64,000 nucleotides of DNA, from assembly GCF_027889715.1 (NCBI RefSeq), contig NZ_JAPJZH010000002.1, positions 124,001 through 188,000 of the forward strand, written 5' to 3'. The notes beneath the pieces are model-generated. The model was not told the DNA's origin. It saw only the letters and a program-made list of their open reading frames with translations, and did not search any database. Position 1 is the stretch's first letter, and each line of letters begins with the position of its first letter. The stretch comes from Allohoeflea poritis (GTDB lineage: Bacteria; Pseudomonadota; Alphaproteobacteria; Rhizobiales; Rhizobiaceae). Shown here piece by piece: positions 51,969-62,454 of the stretch. The position numbers and the translations under genes are program-made.

Positions 51969-52952
51969 ATGAATACGACAATACTGAAACAACACACGAG
52001 CGCCGCAGATCAGCCGCCAGCCGGCAATGAAATCATCTGCGCAATCGACAATGTGTCGAAAACCTATACCGGCGGCTCCGTCGCGCTTGATGCGGTGTCT
52101 CTCGATATACGAAAGGGCGAGATACTTGCCCTGCTCGGCCCCAACGGCGCCGGCAAGACAACGCTTATCTCCATCATCTGCGGTATCGTCAATGCAAGCG
52201 GCGGCAAGGTCACCGTGGGCGGTTACGATGTCGTGGACAATTACCGCCAGAGCCGCGGCCTGATCGGCCTGGTACCCCAGGAAGTCAATCTGGAGCCCTT
52301 CGAGACGGTCAACAACACCGTCACCTTCTCGCGCGGCCTGTTCGGAAAGCCCCGTAATCCGGGCACCATCGAGCAGGTCCTGCGCAAACTGTCGCTCTGG
52401 GACAAGCGCGACAGCCAGATCGTCACCCTGTCTGGCGGCATGAAACGGCGCGTGCTGATTGCCAAGGCGCTGTCGCACGAGCCGCGTGTCCTGTTCCTTG
52501 ACGAGCCGACGGCGGGTGTCGATGTCGAATTGCGCAAGGATATGTGGGAGACCGTGCGCGCACTGCAGGCCGACGGGGTCACCATCATTCTGACGACCCA
52601 TTATATCGAGGAGGCCGAGGCGATCGCCGACCGCATCGGTGTCATCGACAAGGGCAGGTTGATGCTGGTCGAGGACAAGGCGACGCTGATGCAACGCCTC
52701 GGCACCAAGCAGATCCGCATCGAACTTCAGGACCCGCTGGGCCGCATCCCGGACGCGCTGTCCAAATACGAGCTGGAAATCGCGACAAGCGGCAACGCGC
52801 TCATCTACACCTATGACCCGACCGGTGGGCGCACCGGCATCACATCGCTCTTTTCGGATCTCAAATCCGCCGGCCTCGTCCTGTGCGACGTGCAGACACA
52901 CGAAAGCTCGCTGGAAGAGATCTTCGTCAATCTGATCAAGGGTGAGGCATGA
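51969..52952 (+). CDS. ABC-2 type transporter ATP-binding protein
   Basis: A 327-residue ATPase of the NodI/DrrA type. Walker [10 protein letters not shown] is near residue 57, the signature LSGGMKRR near residue 155 and Walker [13 protein letters not shown] follows. A C-terminal domain after the NBD, from about residue 235, is typical of the ABC-2 export group. It drives export through the permease encoded in the next gene. That gene overlaps its stop by 4 bases (ATGA). The cargo may be a polysaccharide, lipid or drug; nothing here tells which. Confidence 0.9.
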
Positions 52953-53710
52953 ACTTTCACGCGATAAAGGCGATCTACCTGTTCGAGATGTCGCGGACAT
53001 TCCGCACGCTTCTGCAAAGCGTCGTCTCGCCCGTGCTTTCGACCGCCCTCTATTTCGTCGTTTTCGGCGCCGCGATCGGCTCGCGTTTCGCCGATGTCGA
53101 GGGCGTCAGCTACGGCACCTTCATCGTGCCCGGCCTCATCATGCTCACCGTGCTGACCCAGAGCGTTTCCAACGCCTCCTTCGGCATCTACTTCCCGCGC
53201 TTCATCGGCACCATCCAGGAAATCCTCTCCGCGCCGATCTCCAGCATCGAAATCGTTGTCGGCTATGTCGGAGCGGCGGCCACCAAATCATTCGCCATCG
53301 GCATCATCATCCTGCTCACCGCCACGCTGTTCGTTCCGCTGCGCATCGATCATCCTGTCTGGATGCTCGGATTCCTGGTGCTGACCTGCGTTTCCTTCAG
53401 CCTGTTCGGCTTCATCATCGGCATCTGGGCGAAGAATTTCGAGCAGTTGCAGCTGGTGCCGTTGCTGGTGATCACGCCGCTGGTGTTTCTCGGCGGCAGT
53501 TTCTATTCGATCAACATGCTGCCGCCGCTGTGGCAGAACATCACGCTCTTCAACCCGGTGGTCTATCTGATCTCCGGCTTCCGCTGGAGCTTCTTCAGCC
53601 AGGGTGACGTCGCGGTCGGCCTCAGCCTTGCCATGATCACCCTGTTCCTGGCGATCTGCCTCGGCACCATCATGTGGATCTTCAAGACAGGCTACCGGAT
53701 CAGGAACTAG
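52949..53710 (+). CDS. ABC-2 type transporter permease
   Basis: A 253-residue polytopic protein with about six hydrophobic segments: [34 protein letters not shown], a central pair, [25 protein letters not shown] and a C-terminal [17 protein letters not shown]. The [12 protein letters not shown]...[15 protein letters not shown] segment is a good ABC-2 (NodJ/DrrB) hallmark. With the ATPase it forms an exporter. Its stop codon overlaps by 4 bases that of the convergent sugar ABC ATPase gene. Confidence 0.9.
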
Positions 53711-54465
53711 CCAACGCCGGTAATCATCGAGACGATCTCGTTCTTGTCCGTCTTTGCGGTTTCGCGCACGCCGATCTGTATGCCCCGCCGCAGCACGCAG
53801 ATGCGGTCGGACAGACGGAAAACCTGATCGAGACTGTGGCTGATGATCAGGATGGCGATATTGCGTTCGCGCAGCGTCCTGACGATATCCTCGACCTTTG
53901 CCGTTTCAGCCACCCCCAGAGCAGCCGTCGGCTCGTCCAGCAGAATGAGCTTCCTGGCCCAATGGGTCGCGCGGGCGATTGCCACACCCTGCCGCTGCCC
54001 GCCCGAAAGGTCGCGGATGATCGCTTTCGCCGAGGGAATGCGCACATCCAGTTCATCGACAAGGGCCTGGGTCTCGCGCATCATTGCCTTGCGGTCGAGC
54101 AAATTCAGCGGGCCGCGCACCGTTTCCCGGCCCAGGAACATATTCATGTAAACCGGTTGCTGGTCTGCCAGGGCCAGATCCTGGTAGACGACTTCGATAC
54201 CGTGTGCCCGCGCGACGCTGGCGTCCGAGAAGGAAACCGCCTCGCCGTCGAGGCGGATCGTGCCTGAACTCGGCGCATGCACGCCGGATATCATCTTCAC
54301 CAGCGTTGATTTCCCGGCGCCGTTGTCGCCCACCAGCGCAACGATTTCACCGGCTCGAAGCTCCAGCGAAAAATCCTCCACGGCAACAACGCCGCCGAAC
54401 GCCTTGTGAATATTATCCAGCGCGAGCACGGGCGCGTCGGAGCCGCCATGGACGGTCGTTTTCAT
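53707..54465 (-). CDS. Sugar-type ABC importer ATP-binding protein (FrcA-like, single NBD)
   Basis: A 252-residue single-domain ATPase with Walker [10 protein letters not shown] near residue 37, the signature LSGGQRQG and Walker [13 protein letters not shown]. Unlike RbsA or XylG, it has one nucleotide-binding domain, as in FrcA-type rhizobial importers. It must dimerise to power the permease encoded two genes upstream. It is the last gene of the operon and starts one base over the stop of the YhfX-like gene (TGATG). Confidence 0.92.
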
Positions 54466-55670
54466 CAGCGCAGCTCCGGCCAGGTTTCGGTGCCGCCGAA
54501 AATATTCTCGATTGATGCCACCTGCGGATCCCCGGTCGATATCCCCGAAATACCGACGGTGAAAGCCCGGGTGACGAAGGCCTGTCCACGGAAACCGAAT
54601 ACGACACTGTCGCCAGGACGCGGGCTGGCCGGGCCGGAGGTGTCGATCATGCCGTAATAGTCGATGGCCGAGGGCGGCGGGATCTCGACACGCGCCAGTG
54701 CCGTTTCCTCCGTCGTCGGCTCACGTGCGACAACCGCCTTCACATCGTAATCCGGAAACACGGGATCGATATACAGCCCACCGCCGAAGCAATAGGCCCG
54801 CCAGCCATGCATGTGCGAAACCTCGCTGAGATAAACCACCGCGGGACGTTCCGGAAGATCCTCAAGCGCATGCAGCGGCGTTGTCCCGTGCAACCCGTTC
54901 CCGGGCTCGCACTGTGTCGCACCGGCATCGGCAAGCGCGTCGAGCACCACGGAGGAGGTCGTGCCGGGCGCATTGATCTCGATCCCCGACCGCCCCGCTG
55001 CGGCCAGTTTTTCCGCCGCCTTTGTAAGCGTCGCAAGGTTCGGCGTCGGCTTTACCTTGCGCGTCTCGTTGTCAAACAGCAGCGCAGGAAATGTCGTGAT
55101 TCCGGCAAAGCGCCCGCCGGAAAGCCCGTCGATCATATCCGCCGCCGCGACAACATCCTCCGCCGGAAAACCGCCTTCATGGCCGCGATAGAAGATGTCG
55201 CCCTGTGTCTGGATCCGGGCCATGAGCCCTTGCTCGCGGCCCGCTGCATCCGATGCCTCGGCGGCCTCCCGCGCCTTTTCTTCGCTGAAGACCGTCCAGT
55301 AATCCGGCCTTATGTTCCTCGCCGCCGGCGCCGCCTCGAAGCGCGGCACCTGAACGAGGTGCCCCAGGTGACCGATGCTCATGCCGGCGCGCGCGCAGGC
55401 CACGGCACAGGCCATGTCCACCGCGACGGCACGATCGACACCGCCCCGCACAAGCGCGTGACAGAAGGCGCTGTTGCGCCCCACCTGCTTGGTCATGGCG
55501 AAGACCTTGAGGCCGCGCTTGTCGGCCTCGGCCTTGAAAAGGCGCGCATTATCCTCGACCGCGTCGAGATCCAGCACATAGGCGTTGGCCGGAATGCGGC
55601 CCTGCTGATGCAGCGCGATCGCCGCTTCGATCAGCTTCGGATTGCGTCGTCTCAAAACATCCAGAAACAT
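54465..55670 (-). CDS. YhfX-like PLP-dependent protein (alanine racemase fold)
   Basis: A 401-residue protein related to E. coli YhfX. The likely PLP lysine is K61 in FAMTKQVGRN; downstream landmarks are GHLVQVPRFE, FPALLFDNETRKVKPTPNL, INAPGTTSSVVLDAL, a CEPGNGLHGTTPLHA loop and YLSEVSHMHG. A fold of alanine-racemase N-terminal plus beta domains is expected. Racemisation, decarboxylation or aldolase-like chemistry on an amino acid or amino sugar is possible; YhfX itself has no well-established activity. AAGGAGG precedes the ATG. It lies 10 bases after the permease gene and overlaps the ATPase gene, inside the importer operon. Confidence 0.85.
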   Translation of the reverse strand: MFLDVLRRRNPKLIEAAIALHQQGRIPANAYVLDLDAVEDNARLFKAEADKRGLKVFAMTKQVGRNSAFCHALVRGGVDRAVAVDMACAVACARAGMSIGHLGHLVQVPRFEAAPAARNIRPDYWTVFSEEKAREAAEASDAAGREQGLMARIQTQGDIFYRGHEGGFPAEDVVAAADMIDGLSGGRFAGITTFPALLFDNETRKVKPTPNLATLTKAAEKLAAAGRSGIEINAPGTTSSVVLDALADAGATQCEPGNGLHGTTPLHALEDLPERPAVVYLSEVSHMHGWRAYCFGGGLYIDPVFPDYDVKAVVAREPTTEETALARVEIPPPSAIDYYGMIDTSGPASPRPGDSVVFGFRGQAFVTRAFTVGISGISTGDPQVASIENIFGGTETWPELR

Positions 55671-55680
55671 GTGTGCCTCC

Positions 55681-56634
55681 TTACCGGGCCGGATCGCGCA
55701 GCGATATCGCCACGGCGATCAATATGATCAGCCCCCGCACGATCATCTGATCGGATACCGAAAGGCCCATCAGAATGAGCCCGTTATTGAGCATGCCCAT
55801 CAGCAAGGACCCGACCAGGGCGCCGATGACGGAGCCCTTGCCGCCATTGAGCGCGGTGCCGCCGACGATCACGGCGGCGATGACCGTCATCAGATCGCTC
55901 TCGCCGAGCGTGTAGCGCGCCGCCTGCAACCGGCCCGCATAGAGCAGCCCGGCCAGCCCGGCACAGCCGCCGCTGATCATCAGGACGGCAAGCCGGATGC
56001 GCGGCACCTTGATGCCTGAGACCTGCGCGGCGCCGGCATTGTCGCCGGTCGCAATCACATGGGCACCGAAACGTGTCTCCCGATAGACCACATGCCCGAC
56101 AACAACCGCGCCGATGGTCCACAAAATAAGGGAAGGAATGCCGAACAACGACCCGGACCCGAAAAAACCGGTAAAGGCGTCATTGATCACCGGAATGGAG
56201 CGCAGATCGGTCATTGACCTGGCAACGCCTGCAAACAGGCCGAGCGTCGCCAGCGTGACCAGGAATGACGGCAGGCGCAAATAGGCGACCAAGAAGCCGT
56301 TGAACCAGCCGATCGCGAGACCAACGCCCAGGCCGGCGGCAATGCCAGCCACCATCGGATAATCCTGCATCACCACGGCGCCCGAAAGCGCTGAAACCGC
56401 AACGATCGAGCCGAATGAAAGATCGATCTCACCCGCCGACAGCACGAAGACGAAGCCGATCGCCATGATCGTCGCCGGCGCCGTCTGCAGGACGATGTTT
56501 GAAAGATTGCGGGTCGTCAGGAAGCCGTCATCGCTCAGCGTAATGGCGAAGAACAGGAAGATGGCAAGAAAGCCGAGATAAACGACATATTGCTGCAGAT
56601 CGAAAGTCTGCCTGGCGGATCTCAGCCAATCCAT
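55681..56634 (-). CDS. Sugar ABC importer permease (RbsC/FrcC-like)
   Basis: A 317-residue permease with about nine or ten hydrophobic spans, starting YVVYLGFLAIFLFFAITLSDDG and continuing IVLQTAPATIMAIGFVFVLSAGEIDLSFGSIVAV, the usual RbsC signature. The C-terminal DLMTVIAAVIVGGTALNGGKGSVIGALVGSLLMGMLNNGLILMGLS block is also diagnostic. It forms the membrane channel for the binding protein encoded upstream. GGGGAG precedes the ATG by 9 bases. A strong hairpin separates it from the binding-protein gene. Confidence 0.92.
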   Translation of the reverse strand: MDWLRSARQTFDLQQYVVYLGFLAIFLFFAITLSDDGFLTTRNLSNIVLQTAPATIMAIGFVFVLSAGEIDLSFGSIVAVSALSGAVVMQDYPMVAGIAAGLGVGLAIGWFNGFLVAYLRLPSFLVTLATLGLFAGVARSMTDLRSIPVINDAFTGFFGSGSLFGIPSLILWTIGAVVVGHVVYRETRFGAHVIATGDNAGAAQVSGIKVPRIRLAVLMISGGCAGLAGLLYAGRLQAARYTLGESDLMTVIAAVIVGGTALNGGKGSVIGALVGSLLMGMLNNGLILMGLSVSDQMIVRGLIILIAVAISLRDPAR

Positions 56635-56669
56635 GGCCTGCGGCTCCCCTGAGAACGGTTGATTGAAAA

Positions 56670-56692
56670 CCGGCCGGCTGAACGCCGGCCGG
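56670..56692 (-). terminator. Hairpin between binding-protein and permease genes
   Basis: CCGGCCGGC (56670-56678) and GCCGGCCGG (56684-56692) pair perfectly around TGAAC. In the minus-strand transcript a short GTTTTC stretch follows, so partial termination is likely. It would lower expression of the permease relative to the binding protein. Confidence 0.6.
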
Positions 56693-56706
56693 AAGTGGAA
56701 GGAAGA

Positions 56707-57765
56707 TTACTTCCCGGCGTTCTTGACGCTGTCGGGCGCTTCGCGGTGCAGGGATTGCTTCCACCCGGCCTCGACATTGTCCGGCGTCACCGTGACCGCC
56801 GGCGCAACAACGAAGGGCGGCGTTTCCTCGCCCGCCAGTGCGCGGGCGCCGGCCGCGGCCATTGCACGGCCCAGCTCATAGGCCTCATCGGCAACGATCG
56901 CCGTCACATTGCCGCCCTTGACCATGTCGAGCGCCACCGGCTCTGACAGATCGAGCGTCACCACTTTCGTCGTCTTGTTTCCATTGGCGCGAAGCGCGGC
57001 AAGAACACCTTCCGCCGGCCCTGCCCAGGTCACGTAGATGCCGCCAAGATCGGGATTCTTGAGCAGCATCGCATTGGCGATGTCCTCGGCCCGGGCCGGA
57101 TCGCTGATGCCCTGCTCGGCGACGATCTCGATATCCGGATAGTCGTTCTCGATGGTCGTCTTGAAGGCGTTGTCGCGCTGGTTGGTGACATAGTAATTGG
57201 CATCGTGGAAGATCCAGCCGACCGTACCCTTGCCGCCCATGCCCTTGGCCAGCGCATCGGCGGCCTGCTTTCCCATCTGGAAGAGGTCATCGGTCACGAT
57301 CGCCGCATAGTCCGTCGGATGCTGATAGTCCTGCGGCAGGTTGGACAGGAACACCAATTTCACGCCCTCGGCCTTGGCTTCCTTGAAGGCGGCAGCCGAT
57401 GTGACCGGATCGAGCGGCAAAGACAGGATGATGTTCGGCTTTTTCGCCAGTGCCGTTTCGATATCGCTGCGCTGTTTCGCGGCATCGAAGCCGGCGCTTG
57501 TGGTGGCAACCACTTCAATACCGAGCCGGTTGAATTCGTCCGTGGCTCCGGCCGTCACCGCGTTCACGAAATCGGACTGATCGTGCCAAAGCAGCGCCGC
57601 GCGATAATTGCCCTCCTTGAGCATCGATACCTTGTCATCGTCCACCTTCACCGTCTTTGAAGGTGTCGCGGTTTCGCCCTGGGGACCGACAGTCTCGGCC
57701 TGGGCAAGTCCACCCAACAGCATCAGCGCCACCGAAGCTGTGGTCATCATTCTGGTAAATCGCAT
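56707..57765 (-). CDS. Sugar ABC importer substrate-binding protein
   Basis: A 352-residue periplasmic binding protein of the ribose/galactose (Peripla_BP_4) type. The start is ATG 57765 after GGAGGAAC, with a signal peptide of about 23 residues ending MLLGGLAQA. Features are YRAALLWHDQSDFVNAVTAGATDEFNRLGIEVVATTSAGFDAAKQRSDIETALAKKPNIILSLPLDP and the GIYVTWAGPAEGVLAALRANG hinge segment. Ligands of the family are sugars, but inositols, purines and related small molecules are also bound. It belongs to the operon with the M20 hydrolase, permease, YhfX-like protein and ATPase. Confidence 0.9.
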   Translation of the reverse strand: MRFTRMMTTASVALMLLGGLAQAETVGPQGETATPSKTVKVDDDKVSMLKEGNYRAALLWHDQSDFVNAVTAGATDEFNRLGIEVVATTSAGFDAAKQRSDIETALAKKPNIILSLPLDPVTSAAAFKEAKAEGVKLVFLSNLPQDYQHPTDYAAIVTDDLFQMGKQAADALAKGMGGKGTVGWIFHDANYYVTNQRDNAFKTTIENDYPDIEIVAEQGISDPARAEDIANAMLLKNPDLGGIYVTWAGPAEGVLAALRANGNKTTKVVTLDLSEPVALDMVKGGNVTAIVADEAYELGRAMAAAGARALAGEETPPFVVAPAVTVTPDNVEAGWKQSLHREAPDSVKNAGK

Positions 57766-57799
57766 AACGGGTTCCTCCCTTGCTTTTTGCTGCGGCGGG

Positions 57800-59059
57800 T
57801 CACTGACCGACGACGCCGCACTGGTTTGCAATGAACGCGGCAAACGCAACGACGCCGGCCACGTATTCTTCGACATTCACGCGTTCTTCGAGCGTGTGGC
57901 AGTTGGTGATGTCTCCCGGAGCGCAATAGACTGCCGGGCATCCGATCTGATCGATCAGGAACGGGATCTCCGACCAGTAGGGCGCGCCTTCGATGCGGCC
58001 GCGGCCGGGCAACGCGGCCCCAAGAATTTCAGCGAGATCATGGATCTGCGGAAGATCCTCGCTGACTTCGGATGGCGAACCGCCAAAACGATGATCCCGC
58101 CCGGCCGGGTAGTCGATTTCAATGGAAATGCCATCCTGCACCTGCGCGCCCCGCACGGCCGCCTCGAATTCGGCAACGGCATCATCCAGCGCTTCGCCGG
58201 GAAGCAGCTTGCGGATCAGCGACAGGCGGCATTCCCCCGGAACGGCGATATAGCCGCCGCCGCTCATCTCCGTCACCAGCGCGAAGGCGCGGCCCACGAG
58301 GCTGTGGCTGTCACGCGCGGAAATCGCGTCCGAGTGCGCCCATATGGCGGAAGCCACGGCATGCGCGGCTTTCAGAGCATCCACGCCCTGTTCCGGCACG
58401 CCGAAATAGGCGGATTTTCCGGCAATCGCGAGGTCGGCGATAAAAAAGCCCATCTGCGCCGGAAACACGGAAAGCCGCGTCGGCTCCACATAGATTGCAA
58501 AATCCGGCTTCTCGATCTCTCCGGAAAGCACGCGCTGGGTATAGTCCTTGATGCCGGCACTGACGCCGGTGCCCGGTTCGCCGCTCTCTTCGTCCCCGAC
58601 AAAGGCGAATGCGACGTCGCCCTTCAGTTCCACGCCGGCCCTGTCCAGCAATTGCACGGCGGCAAGCGCCGAACAGATGCCGGCCTTGAGGTCTCCGGCG
58701 CCGCGCGCCCAGATCTCGCCGTCGATCTCCGGCGCTGCGAACGGGTCCTCGCGCTCAGTGCCCCGCCAGCGCTCCTTCCAGCCCCGGACATGCACGGTGT
58801 CGGTGTGGCCCACGAACAGCAGTCGCGGGCCATCGCCCCTTCCCTTGCGCGCGCCCCAGATATTGGGCCGCCCGGGCAGGAAATCCGCCTGCTGCGGATC
58901 GAGGCCCAGATCGGCCATCTGCCGGTTCAGGAAGGCGACGAAGTTGGCTTCGTTGCCTGTGATGCTTTCATGCGAGACCGCGGCCTTAAGCAGTGCGACG
59001 ACCGCATCGCGGTCAACCAACCGCGCAAACCGTTCGACTATGGGCGCGTGCGCCGTCAT
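57800..59059 (-). CDS. M20-family metallohydrolase (ArgE/DapE/carboxypeptidase-like)
   Basis: A 419-residue zinc amidohydrolase. Ligands and catalytic residues are in FVGHTDTVHV (His-x-Asp), ARGAGDLKAGICSAL (Asp), FVGDEESGEPGTG (Glu-Glu) and the C-terminal TNCHTLEERVNVEEYV (His). A dimerisation domain lies in the centre. Members deacylate N-acyl amino acids or cleave dipeptides. ATG 59059 overlaps the ROK stop in an ATGA. Placing a deacylase beside an importer and a PLP enzyme suggests that an N-acylated amino acid or amino sugar is imported and processed. The reaction is not proven. Confidence 0.88.
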   Translation of the reverse strand: MTAHAPIVERFARLVDRDAVVALLKAAVSHESITGNEANFVAFLNRQMADLGLDPQQADFLPGRPNIWGARKGRGDGPRLLFVGHTDTVHVRGWKERWRGTEREDPFAAPEIDGEIWARGAGDLKAGICSALAAVQLLDRAGVELKGDVAFAFVGDEESGEPGTGVSAGIKDYTQRVLSGEIEKPDFAIYVEPTRLSVFPAQMGFFIADLAIAGKSAYFGVPEQGVDALKAAHAVASAIWAHSDAISARDSHSLVGRAFALVTEMSGGGYIAVPGECRLSLIRKLLPGEALDDAVAEFEAAVRGAQVQDGISIEIDYPAGRDHRFGGSPSEVSEDLPQIHDLAEILGAALPGRGRIEGAPYWSEIPFLIDQIGCPAVYCAPGDITNCHTLEERVNVEEYVAGVVAFAAFIANQCGVVGQ

Positions 59060-60270
59060 GCCCTCGCCCCGCCGAATTTCACAACATCCCTTGGCGGCAG
59101 CGCGATGGCAGCGCCGGGTACGCCACCGGAAAACAGCGTTGCGTGCAGATGGCTGAGCCCAACCGCTGCCGCACCGACAATCGCGGCTTGCGTTCCAAGC
59201 GATGACACGGCGATATCGATCTCGCGCGGGAAGCACAGCCTGGCGAATTCCCGAACGCGATCGGCGATCTCGTCGCGGCTGCCGATCGATCCGCCGAGCA
59301 CAACCCGGCCCGGACCCGTCACGGCACAGATCGCGGCGACCGCCCGCGCGACAAGCTTTGCCGTCTCATCGAGAACGGTCAGCGCTGCGGCGTCGCCACT
59401 GGCGGCGGCATCGAAAATACCGGGTACGTCTTCATCTTTTCCGGTCAGTTGCCTGTATCGGTCGCGCATACCGAACGTGGCTGTGACACGCTCAAGTGCG
59501 CCGACACGCAACGATTCCGGTTCGAACGGATCGGCGCCGAAGGGCAGGAAACCGAGCTCGCCCGCCGCATGCGCGCTGCCGCGAACGAGTTCTCCGCCGA
59601 CCATGATGCCGGCGCCGATGCCGGTTCCGAGCGCGACATAGGCGAGGTCATCGACCCCGGAACCGGTTCCGATCCAATGCTCACCGAGAACGGCCAGATT
59701 GACGTCGTTCTCGACGAACACATCCCGGCCCAGCTCCTGCCTGAGCTTATCGACGACATCGAATGTCTCGATATCCGCGATATTGGGTGCCATCAATACG
59801 CGACCGGTATCGGGGTCCGGCACGCCCGGCACACCGATGACAGCAAGGCGCACCTTTTCAAAGTCGATGTCATTGTGCCGCGCCACATCGCGACACATGC
59901 GGGCGATCTGCCGGACGACGTGAACGCCGCCCTTCTCGTCCGTCGGCTCGACAAGCTCGGCAAGAACGTTGCACGACAGATCGGCGATCGCGGCGCGGGC
60001 CTTGGTCCCGCCAAGGTCCACCGCCGCGATGCAAGCCGCGTCTGGCACGATTTCGTAGGTGACGGCGCTGCGCCCGACATGGCCGCTGGTCCGGCCGGTC
60101 TCGCGGATCCAGCCGTCATTTTCCAGCAGGCGGGCGATCTCGGAGATCGTCTGTTTGGAAAGGCCCGTCTGCTTCGCCACGCTGGCTCGCGAGATCGGGC
60201 CGGAATGCACGATCGTTTCCATGACAGCGCAAAGCGAAAGTTGTCGTGATATGCGCGAGGCGTCGCTCAA
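59056..60270 (-). CDS. ROK-family transcriptional regulator
   Basis: A 404-residue ROK protein. An N-terminal winged helix (ISRASVAKQTGLSKQTISEIARLLENDGWIRE) precedes a sugar-kinase-like domain with IAAVDLGGTKARAAIADL and GTGIGAGIMVGGELVRGSAHAAGELGFLPFG. The usual zinc motif of ROK proteins, CxCGxxGC, is absent from the position after FLPFG. The start is TTG 60270, 6 bases after AGGA. It leads the importer operon and probably represses it at the palindrome just upstream; the kinase site may bind a phosphorylated sugar ligand. Confidence 0.9.
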   Translation of the reverse strand: MSDASRISRQLSLCAVMETIVHSGPISRASVAKQTGLSKQTISEIARLLENDGWIRETGRTSGHVGRSAVTYEIVPDAACIAAVDLGGTKARAAIADLSCNVLAELVEPTDEKGGVHVVRQIARMCRDVARHNDIDFEKVRLAVIGVPGVPDPDTGRVLMAPNIADIETFDVVDKLRQELGRDVFVENDVNLAVLGEHWIGTGSGVDDLAYVALGTGIGAGIMVGGELVRGSAHAAGELGFLPFGADPFEPESLRVGALERVTATFGMRDRYRQLTGKDEDVPGIFDAAASGDAAALTVLDETAKLVARAVAAICAVTGPGRVVLGGSIGSRDEIADRVREFARLCFPREIDIAVSSLGTQAAIVGAAAVGLSHLHATLFSGGVPGAAIALPPRDVVKFGGARA

Positions 60271-60280
60271 GGTGCATCCT

Positions 60281-60307
60281 ATTAGTTCGTTCTGTTACCG
60301 AACTAAT
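60281..60307. promoter_or_regulatory. Inverted repeat upstream of the ROK operon, probable ROK operator
   Basis: ATTAGTTCG (60281-60289) and CGAACTAAT (60299-60307) are perfect 9-base arms around a 9-base spacer. It begins 11 bases upstream of the ROK start codon, where autorepression of the operon is expected. ROK/NagC-type proteins bind dyads of similar TTAGTTCG-like sequence. Confidence 0.7.
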
Positions 60308-60516: not shown

Positions 60517-62454
60517 ATGCTATCTCGGAAATTATTGACGACCCTTGCCGTGCTGCTCGCCGGCACGGCCATGGCCCACGCCAAGGATGCGACCTATGTC
60601 GGGTCCGTCGAAACCATAAGCGGCGATGCGGGCGGAAAGGCGCGCGGCACCGTCTTTCTCGACGCGAACCGCAATTCCAGGCTTGATAATGGCGAGTCCG
60701 GCATTGAGGGCGTCATGGTTTCCAACGGTCGCGAGGTCGTCCTCACCGGCGCCGACGGCAAATATGAATTGCCCGCCTATGATGACATGAACCTGTTCGT
60801 CACCAAGCCGGCGGGCCATGCCACACCGGTCGACAAGGACATGATCCCCCAGTTCAACTACATCCACAAAGTCGCCGGCTCCCCCGATCTGCGCTTCGGC
60901 GGCATCAAGCCGACCGGCCCCCTGCCCGCACAAATCAACTTCCCGCTGATTGCCGACGGCTCCGGCTCCAGCTTCGATTGCCTGATTTTCGGCGATGTCC
61001 AGGCCTACACGAACCGGGAGCTCGGCTATGTACGCGAGACGGTCGGAAAGATGCTGGCCAACCGGGACAACCAGAAGACCGAATGCCTGATCTACGCAGG
61101 CGACGTTGCCGGTGACGACCTGTCGCTGTATCCGCGCATCAAGGCCATCGGCGCGGTCGGCCGCGTGCCGCAATACTGGGTCGGCGGAAACCACGATCTC
61201 GATTTCGACGCAAAAAGCGATGCCGATTCCTTCGACACGTTCCGCACCGAATGGGGACCCGAATATTATTCCTTCGATATTGGCAACGTGCATTTCGTGA
61301 CGCTCGACAATGTGCGCTATCCCTGCAACGGCGTCGATCCGCACCCCTTCTGTTCGCCCGACAAGAAGTCGACCTATAACGGCGTCATCTCGGACAGGCA
61401 GCTTGAATGGCTCGCCAACGATCTCGCCAATGTTCCGCAGGACAAGCTGATCGTCATCAGCGCCCATATCCCTTTCCAGACTTTCACGGACAATACGGCC
61501 GCCAAGCACCAGACGGACAATTTCGACAAACTCGCCGCGCTGCTCGAAGGCCGGCCCGCGCTTGGCCTGTCGGGCCACACGCACACGACCGAGAACATCC
61601 TGCCCGGCGAAGATTACGAAGGATGGGAGAAGAACACCAAGGTGCCGTCAGCACCCTTCCACCAGATCGTTACCGGCGCGGTGTCCGGCTCCTGGTGGGC
61701 CGGCGACGTAAACGACGACGGCGTTCCGCGCTCCACACAGCGTCTCGGCTCGCCGCGCGGTTATTACCAGATCGCTTTTGACGGCTCCGATTATGTCGAC
61801 ACCTACCTCAAATTCGGCGGCGAAGAAAACGAGCAGATGCATGCCTCCTTCAATTCGCCGCGGTTCCGCGATTGGGCCAAGGACCTGCTCGCCTATGTCG
61901 ACCTTTACGGCGCGCCCTCGGATGTGCTTCCGCCGGTCACCGTCAACGACCTTTTCGACCAGAACATGCTGACGCGGGCCGATCTTCAGGGCGGCACATG
62001 GGTCGCGGTCAATGTCTGGAACGGCTCGAAGGAAAGCAAGGTCAGCATCTCGATCAACGGCAGCGAACCCATTGCCGCCAAACGCACCCAGGACGGAACC
62101 GGCGAAGCCAAGCGGTCAGGCGTCGAATATGCCGATCCGCTGGCGCTCGCTCAACAGTCCACGAACGGCAGCATGGCTTTCAAATCGGCGAAGAATGGAG
62201 AGGCAACGGACGGTTTCAACACCTGGACCGGCGTCGAGTGGCGCGGCGTTCCCGGCCCGCTCCAAAGCTGGATGCTGACGAAGAACTCCCAACACCTATG
62301 GCGCGCCGACCTGCCCGCGGACCTTCCAGCCGGCGTGCACACACTGACGGCACAGACCACGGACCGCTACGGTCGCACCTTTGATCACACCATCACCTTC
62401 GAGGTGGTCGAACAAATGCCACAGATGACCTGGCAGAAAGATTTGTGGGATTAG
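60517..62454 (+). CDS. Exported calcineurin-like metallophosphoesterase
   Basis: A 645-residue secreted phosphoesterase. A signal peptide covers about residues 1-22 (TLAVLLAGTAMAHA). Residues 40-95 resemble a prealbumin-like domain (GTVFLDANRNSRLDNGESGIEGVMVSNGREVVLTGADGKY). The catalytic core from about residue 150 has the metal motifs CLIFGDVQAY, LIYAGDVAGD, GGNHDLDF, VISAHIPF and GLSGHTHT. A C-terminal domain of about 200 residues follows (YDVDTYLKFGG-like text then a beta-rich end). AGGAG precedes the ATG. Phosphate scavenging in the periplasm is likely, and a Pho-box-like array lies upstream. Confidence 0.9.
   Translation: MLSRKLLTTLAVLLAGTAMAHAKDATYVGSVETISGDAGGKARGTVFLDANRNSRLDNGESGIEGVMVSNGREVVLTGADGKYELPAYDDMNLFVTKPAGHATPVDKDMIPQFNYIHKVAGSPDLRFGGIKPTGPLPAQINFPLIADGSGSSFDCLIFGDVQAYTNRELGYVRETVGKMLANRDNQKTECLIYAGDVAGDDLSLYPRIKAIGAVGRVPQYWVGGNHDLDFDAKSDADSFDTFRTEWGPEYYSFDIGNVHFVTLDNVRYPCNGVDPHPFCSPDKKSTYNGVISDRQLEWLANDLANVPQDKLIVISAHIPFQTFTDNTAAKHQTDNFDKLAALLEGRPALGLSGHTHTTENILPGEDYEGWEKNTKVPSAPFHQIVTGAVSGSWWAGDVNDDGVPRSTQRLGSPRGYYQIAFDGSDYVDTYLKFGGEENEQMHASFNSPRFRDWAKDLLAYVDLYGAPSDVLPPVTVNDLFDQNMLTRADLQGGTWVAVNVWNGSKESKVSISINGSEPIAAKRTQDGTGEAKRSGVEYADPLALAQQSTNGSMAFKSAKNGEATDGFNTWTGVEWRGVPGPLQSWMLTKNSQHLWRADLPADLPAGVHTLTAQTTDRYGRTFDHTITFEVVEQMPQMTWQKDLWD

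Follow-up and report, generated by a model that had tools for sequence, protein, structure and literature searches.

Systems closest to the YhfX operon

In Escherichia coli, the YhfX protein is encoded in the yhfSTU-php-yhfWXYZ operon (gene order as seen in MG1655). Its structure has been solved (4kbx), and in agreement with an earlier note on the DNA studied here, a search of open-licence PubMed Central (PMC) papers listed none that assigns an activity to it. Here we describe a different operon built around a YhfX homologue, located in a 64,000-nucleotide stretch of the Allohoeflea poritis genome (Rhizobiaceae; contig NZ_JAPJZH010000002.1, positions 124,001 to 188,000 of the forward strand), which we will refer to as the window. 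Six minus-strand genes (53707-60270) encode a ROK-family regulator, an M20 amidohydrolase, a sugar-type binding protein, a permease, a YhfX-like protein of the fold that uses pyridoxal 5'-phosphate (PLP), and an ATPase. The operon is real and conserved, and the same search listed no description of it. We tentatively propose that it serves the uptake and breakdown of an N-acylated hexosamine.

The partners of YhfX differ between the two operons: the E. coli operon encodes YhfT, a PTE-like protein, YhfS and YhfW, and has no ROK regulator, M20 protein or RbsABC-type importer, and a tree of YhfX proteins separates the two types. Another comparison is offered by the ong pathway for N-acetyl-D-glucosaminate (GlcNAc1A) in Pseudoalteromonas prydzensis, where deacylation precedes phosphorylation and a fold-type III PLP enzyme then acts on the free amine, with a D-aminoacylase-like OngB, SSS-type transport, a MurR/RpiR regulator (OngR) and 2-keto-3-deoxygluconate (KDG) as the product (PMC9537276). 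Its deacetylase and its fold-type III PLP enzyme act in the sequence that we propose here, whereas the ong substrate is a sugar acid; in the window we found an M20 protein instead of a D-aminoacylase-type deacetylase, together with an ATP-binding cassette (ABC) importer and a ROK regulator, and hexosamine-6-phosphate deaminase homologues lie near the operons of relatives. With the standard nag pathway (NagK, NagA and NagB), the system would share the end reaction in those relatives that carry NagB-I or NagB-II, and a NagK-like kinase occurs in Lachnospiraceae-type loci; unlike that pathway, it includes an extra PLP protein.

A gene set conserved around YhfX

Searching with the YhfX of the window returned 72 loci (loci are numbered with the prefix L), and the YhfX family (PF21279) occurs in 18 of 397 genomes sampled from the window's order, 11 of 398 from its phylum (partly the same genomes as in the order sample), 15 of 398 from the phylum to which the L078 genome belongs and 5 of 396 from that of the L079 genome. 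A quick tree was built from 105 of 115 YhfX proteins, after dropping seven near-duplicates (L050, L051, L070, L103, L107, L115 and L117) and three fragments (L092, L096 and L179). Within it, 82 proteins fell in group A (i.e., the window's type of gene set), 21 belonged to E. coli-type yhf operons, and L174 and L175 stood beside group A; these last two are excluded from all group-A counts.

Neighbourhood counts are based on tblastn because a simple gene caller missed genes (its M20-cluster label appeared in just 36 of 72 loci). We counted same-strand partners in the 66 group-A loci, including the window, with full flanks (over 6.5 kb ahead of YhfX and 1.5 kb beyond the ATPase), and found a binding protein in all 66, the ATPase and the permease in 65 each, ROK in 62 and M20 in 61; in L067, ROK lies on the opposite strand. 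Judged by these matches, the gene set is kept in Alphaproteobacteria and Actinomycetota and, without M20, in Bacillota. The earlier note's proposal of an uptake-and-processing set that includes a PLP protein and a member of a deacylase family is supported, each gene being retained in 61–66 of the 66 loci, and both the 72-locus scan and the full-flank loci extend the set beyond a single strain.

In an Acetobacteraceae variant (L071, 7572-9958), YhfX is preceded by a 496-amino-acid protein that resembles polysaccharide deacetylases weakly (below cut-off) and by a PfkB kinase, and M20 has no match. In L175 (733-9904), a divergent YhfX lies beside an ABC importer, an M20 protein with the usual dimerisation-domain His (see below), a PfkB kinase, a class II aldolase and a 1-phosphofructokinase-like kinase.

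Deaminases and kinases beside the operon

The slot next to the operon held a homologue of glucosamine-6-phosphate deaminase in 29 of the 76 group-A loci with downstream room (NagB-II in 19, NagB-I in 10). Family scoring of deaminases covered four loci: the NagB-I equivalog cut-off was passed in L034 (265 vs. 236.9 bits) and also reached in L093, while NagB-II was the best family of the SIS protein in L095 (265 bits) and scored 250 bits in L076, both values being below its cut-off of 430. Gaps between the alignment ends and the next-slot deaminase were 3–132 bp, and 800–932 bp in an actinobacterial clade, where the space is filled by a ROK-type kinase; all eight loci of this clade have the order ATPase, kinase, NagB-I. 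The kinase of L085 scored 226.7 bits, below the PPGK cut-off of 250. In L076, the ATPase had no match and the deaminase directly follows YhfX. In the three Lachnospiraceae-type loci (L078, L081 and L173), ROK and the binding protein are separated by a BadF kinase, which was NagK-like, below cut-off, where scanned.

Mapping the deaminases of 79 loci onto the YhfX tree gave two changes for NagB-I and 13 for NagB-II. The 21 alphaproteobacterial NagB-II copies formed one clade with L116, L177 and L076 outside it, so losses may account for part of the 13 changes; both the NagB-II and the YhfX tree are quick trees with long branches. Deaminase genes were probably recruited several times beside the operon, and the occurrence of two unrelated deaminase folds in one slot points to a shared activity. 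The conserved operon and its deaminase and kinase neighbours narrow the YhfX question to amino-sugar chemistry and provide a group of proteins suited to joint assays with a small ligand set.

A further difference from the standard nag pathway concerns NagA: the NagA of the window's genome, as a single query at E-values up to 1e-5, matched none of the 115 stretches, which are 4.6–21 kb long and in which a divergent or distant NagA could escape such a search. That genome has a separate nag cluster on the same contig, with NagA (over its cut-off) and with NagB-II and NagK (best families, below their cut-offs). NagB-I also follows the yhf genes in two of the 21 yhf-type loci (L093 and L161, both Firmicute-side yhf operons).

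A YhfX-like protein near D-threonine aldolases by fold

The window's YhfX-like protein matches the E. coli YhfX structure (4kbx) at 3e-72 with a TM-score of 0.89, its AlphaFold2 model has a pLDDT of 92.8, and both its family domains score above their cut-offs (the C-terminal PF21279, 84.2 bits vs. 27; the barrel PF01168, 55.7 bits vs. 24.1). After 4kbx, the nearest solved folds were D-threonine aldolases, beta-hydroxyaspartate aldolase and D-threo-3-hydroxyaspartate dehydratase (TM-scores 0.64–0.70), with D-serine dehydratase (0.65) and PLP decarboxylases (0.60–0.66) close to them and alanine racemases at 0.57–0.62. Profile matches to 6qkb (6.4e-5) and to the D-threonine aldolase 4v15 (2.2e-4) covered the barrel only (residues 23–238). 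Alanine racemase was considered as a model and rejected, given its lower TM-scores (0.57–0.62 vs. 0.64–0.70 among the rows listed) and the absence of an Ala_racemase_C domain, although E-values were close (1.9e-15, ranking ninth, vs. 1.2e-16 for the best D-threonine aldolase).

In 32 chosen YhfX sequences, K61 is invariant and aligns with the lysine of 4v15; we take it to be the candidate PLP lysine. Other invariant residues include H104, Q107, Y161, N233, Y300, D337, Y338, R361 and Q363. Unlike the D-threonine aldolase family, YhfX has no PF14031 domain (no hit up to an E-value of 1, the Pfam hits being PF01168 and PF21279 only), and the EEHG and HxC/HxD motifs of those relatives, which are presumably metal binders, are absent from all 32 sequences in the columns shown. 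When YhfX was profile-aligned with 13 PF14031 relatives (hhalign, probability 96.7), the aligner put the relatives' EEH and PxHxC/HxD opposite gaps, and the YhfX counterparts IDYYG and FRxQ were placed by eye; no His or Cys is conserved in YhfX columns 334–372 among the 32 sequences. We tentatively favour a metal-free chemistry such as epimerisation.

An M20 subfamily with a tyrosine in place of histidine

The AlphaFold2 model of the M20 protein (pLDDT 95.4) is closest in fold to DapE (7uoi, TM-score 0.79), and H85, D123, E157/E158, E192 and H388, which we take to be the metal ligands, are invariant in 28 chosen sequences. The His of the dimerisation domain, assumed here to have a part in the active site, is present in 7uoi, 7rsf, 3pfo and 4o23 and in the distant M20 of L175, whereas it is replaced by Tyr218 in 28 of 28 aligned sequences, and by Tyr also in L179. 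The substitution appears to mark an M20 subfamily with a changed active site, and the protein scores below the TIGR01910 cut-off (146.3 vs. 217.6 bits). Neither this replacement nor the fold of YhfX, nearest D-threonine aldolase yet lacking two of its motifs, had been foreseen in the earlier note.

A proposed amino-sugar route and its rivals

From these families and their layout we infer an import-and-processing pathway, for which an amino-sugar route is likely. Where N-acylated amino acids, dipeptides and amino sugars had initially been put forward side by side as substrates, the deaminases in 29 of 76 next slots and the kinases of the actinobacterial clade and Lachnospiraceae-type loci favour the amino sugar and make the other two less probable. 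More specifically, we assign a probability of roughly 0.4 to the operon importing and degrading an N-acylated hexosamine. Family function and neighbourhood suggest that the binding protein and transporter would import this sugar and that M20 would take off the acyl group before phosphorylation, replacing NagA; deacylation would come first because the PLP of YhfX can form an external aldimine only with a free amine. YhfX may then isomerise the free amino sugar, most simply by moving the C2 proton to the other face (e.g., mannosamine to glucosamine), an argument from chemistry: once the open-chain amino sugar is bound as an aldimine, its C2 is acidic. A kinase would make the 6-phosphate; loci of the actinobacterial clade and of the Lachnospiraceae type encode one next to the operon, and the separate nag cluster of the window's genome includes a NagK-like one. 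Finally, NagB-I or NagB-II (in the window's genome, the NagB-II of that cluster) would release fructose-6-phosphate and ammonia, and ROK would leave its operator upon binding the pathway sugar. In this chain of import, deacylation, PLP-dependent rearrangement, phosphorylation and deamination, every conserved gene has a role, and no shorter chain would achieve this. If this reading is right, amino-sugar catabolism would have another order of steps, with a PLP enzyme at an unexpected place.

The narrower claim that YhfX, as a fold-type III PLP enzyme, epimerises free amino sugars, probably without a metal, in a deacylate-first, NagA-bypassing route of Alphaproteobacteria, Actinomycetota and (without M20) Bacillota is unlikely as things stand. 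If true, the E. coli yhf operon would also be part of amino-sugar metabolism.

A number of observations count against the hexosamine proposal. M20 is absent from five of the 66 full-flank loci (L027, L071, L078, L081 and L173), and a next-slot deaminase is lacking in 47 of 76 loci, among them the window's. The 72 scanned loci derive from a search seeded with the window's own YhfX, and in the part drawn from sampled genomes, a deaminase was found in 5 (L102, L104, L116, L177 and L178) of the 20 group-A loci that were widened; among those without one are four that duplicate scanned loci. Kinase queries (three only) matched nothing in alphaproteobacterial group-A neighbourhoods except PfkB in L071. 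L177, from the actinobacterial sample and outside the clade, has NagB-II and no kinase on its 5.8-kb contig, and L175 has M20, a PfkB kinase and an aldolase with no deaminase match. Known M20 substrates mostly have a carboxylate by the amide, which a hexosamine lacks. In YhfX, H286 is invariant in 32 of 32 sequences and C294 is present in at least 90%, so another metal site is possible. To our knowledge, no PLP enzyme epimerises a free amino aldose, and we can only conjecture the C2 step on chemical grounds.

The best rival explanation, in our view doubtful, takes GlcNAc1A or a like N-acyl amino aldonate as the substrate, which M20 would deacetylate and YhfX would deaminate, as a free 2-amino acid, to KDG, in the manner of OngB and OngC. 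It draws on the proximity of YhfX to the D-threonine aldolase/D-serine dehydratase group by fold (and by profile in the barrel), on N-acyl alpha-amino acids, which we take to be classic M20 substrates, and on the PfkB kinases near YhfX in L071 and L175. However, both of these PfkB proteins scored higher as ribose-phosphate or IolC kinases than as KDG kinase; the EEHG and HxC/HxD motifs of the compared relatives are missing from YhfX; and OngB is D-aminoacylase-like and not M20. The rival would also leave unexplained why hexosamine-6-phosphate deaminase homologues fill 29 of 76 next slots and why NagK-like and ROK-type kinases occur.

Those deaminases would find a use if the substrate were an amino sugar amide-linked to an amino acid, split by M20 (whose relatives include peptidases), with YhfX racemising the amino acid and NagB taking the amino sugar. 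This would employ the M20 protein, a racemase-type fold and NagB together, and alanine racemase does rank ninth among YhfX folds by E-value; given that TM-scores place D-threonine aldolase above alanine racemase and that no neighbour found suggests amino-acid breakdown, though no systematic search for one was made, we consider it improbable. Import of an N-acyl amino acid or dipeptide with no sugar involved would suit the M20 family and the PLP protein, and is highly improbable beside a sugar-type binding protein and permease, a ROK regulator, and kinase and NagB neighbours. Alternatively, M20 may be an aminohydrolase or other hydrolase and not a deacylase, with YhfX acting on a different intermediate: the Tyr in 28 of 28 aligned sequences and L179 fits this, as does the presence of 5-nitroanthranilate aminohydrolase among the nearest folds (TM-score up to 0.77), but the protein has the metal ligands of DapE/ArgE and shares their overall fold, which makes this reading quite improbable.

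Importer

All three families of RbsABC-type importers (Peripla_BP_4, BPD_transp_2 and ABC_tran) are present in the operon. The nearest PDB chain to the binding protein is 2ioy, a periplasmic sugar-binding protein (1.4e-18), and the NCBIfam matches of the permease are all below their equivalog cut-offs. While the binding protein and permease resemble those of RbsABC-type importers, the window's ATPase is half the size: it aligns with the N-terminal half of the YtfR/XylG/AraG models of about 500 amino acids and, with one domain in 252 amino acids, does not contain their two fused nucleotide-binding domains (NBDs). ATPase frames in L078, L081 and L173 are at least 490 amino acids long, about twice the window's (by length only), and that of L107 has 380. 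A second binding-protein gene lies in tandem before the permease in 25 of the 66 full-flank loci (e.g., L026, L030 and L102), its product being 48–58% identical to the window's protein in the nine loci compared; the window has one such gene.

Regulator and operator

The regulator combines a helix-turn-helix (HTH) and a ROK domain with an upstream perfect dyad (9-n9-9), which ends 10 nt before the TTG start. When up to 3 of 16 mismatches are allowed, 60 of 65 loci have the operator core, TTAGTTCG-n9-CGAACTAA, starting 28–63 bp ahead of ROK, compared with 0.05% of 6,500 letter-shuffled upstream stretches (loci with ROK above 150 bits and 100 nt upstream; L076, L078, L081, L083, L173 and L178 were left out). 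All five loci without the core are actinobacterial. The natural reading is that ROK acts as a local, self-regulated repressor of this predicted operator. A wider regulon was considered and rejected, the window's genome having one perfect copy of the core and, with up to 3 mismatches allowed, fewer sites (5) than a backward-read control (16). The END motif of ROK is invariant in 19 of 19 aligned sequences, including actinobacterial loci with a separate kinase, and therefore does not separate kinase from sensor. L079, L080, L082, L085 and L086 lack the TTAGTTCG operator and have in common a different dyad-like element, TTTGTAAGGTAATGTTACTAA, about 40 bp before ROK.

Layout of the operon and its neighbours

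The six-gene run with its upstream dyad and overlaps had been described in the earlier note, and its coordinates and Pfam families are confirmed (Table 1). All six proteins exceed the Pfam cut-off of their own family; among the NCBIfam matches listed, none passes an equivalog cut-off, and YhfX has no NCBIfam match. The ROK and M20 genes overlap by 4 nt (ATGA) and the YhfX and ATPase genes by 1 nt (TGATG), the remaining gaps being 34, 72 and 10 nt; together with their conservation, this spacing suggests that the six genes form one operon. The listed open reading frame of M20 is longer (478 amino acids), and the ATG at 59059 was adopted because many relatives have a start codon at the ROK stop (the start nearest to the window's own position being picked in each).

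Table 1. Features of the YhfX operon of the window, with positions counted from its first nucleotide (aa, amino acids)
Feature	Position	Strand	Size and evidence
ROK-operator candidate, perfect dyad ATTAGTTCG-n9-CGAACTAAT	60281-60307	minus	sequence; single perfect core copy in genome; conservation
ROK-family regulator	59056-60270	minus	404 aa, TTG start; winged HTH and ROK domain; PF00480 E 2.6e-43, HTH_24 1.1e-4
M20 (ArgE/DapE-like) metallo-amidohydrolase	57800-59059	minus	419 aa; PF01546 1.4e-24
Sugar-type periplasmic binding protein	56707-57765	minus	352 aa, signal-like N-terminus; PF13407 (Peripla_BP_4) 1.4e-42
ABC permease, RbsC/AraH/GguB-like	55681-56634	minus	317 aa; PF02653 (BPD_transp_2) 1.1e-39
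YhfX-like fold-type III PLP protein	54465-55670	minus	401 aa; PF21279 9.7e-24, PF01168 7.2e-15
Single-NBD ABC ATPase	53707-54465	minus	252 aa, one ABC_tran domain; PF00005 1.8e-30

At its downstream end, the ATPase gene overlaps tail-to-tail by 4 nt (53707-53710) with an ABC-2 exporter permease gene on the plus strand (52949-53710). At the other end, the predicted ROK operator lies in the intergenic region that separates the operon from a divergent gene for a calcineurin-like phosphoesterase with MetallophosN and MetallophosC domains (60517-62454); among the neighbourhoods compared, this neighbour was matched only in L025 and in the window genome's own locus (L001).

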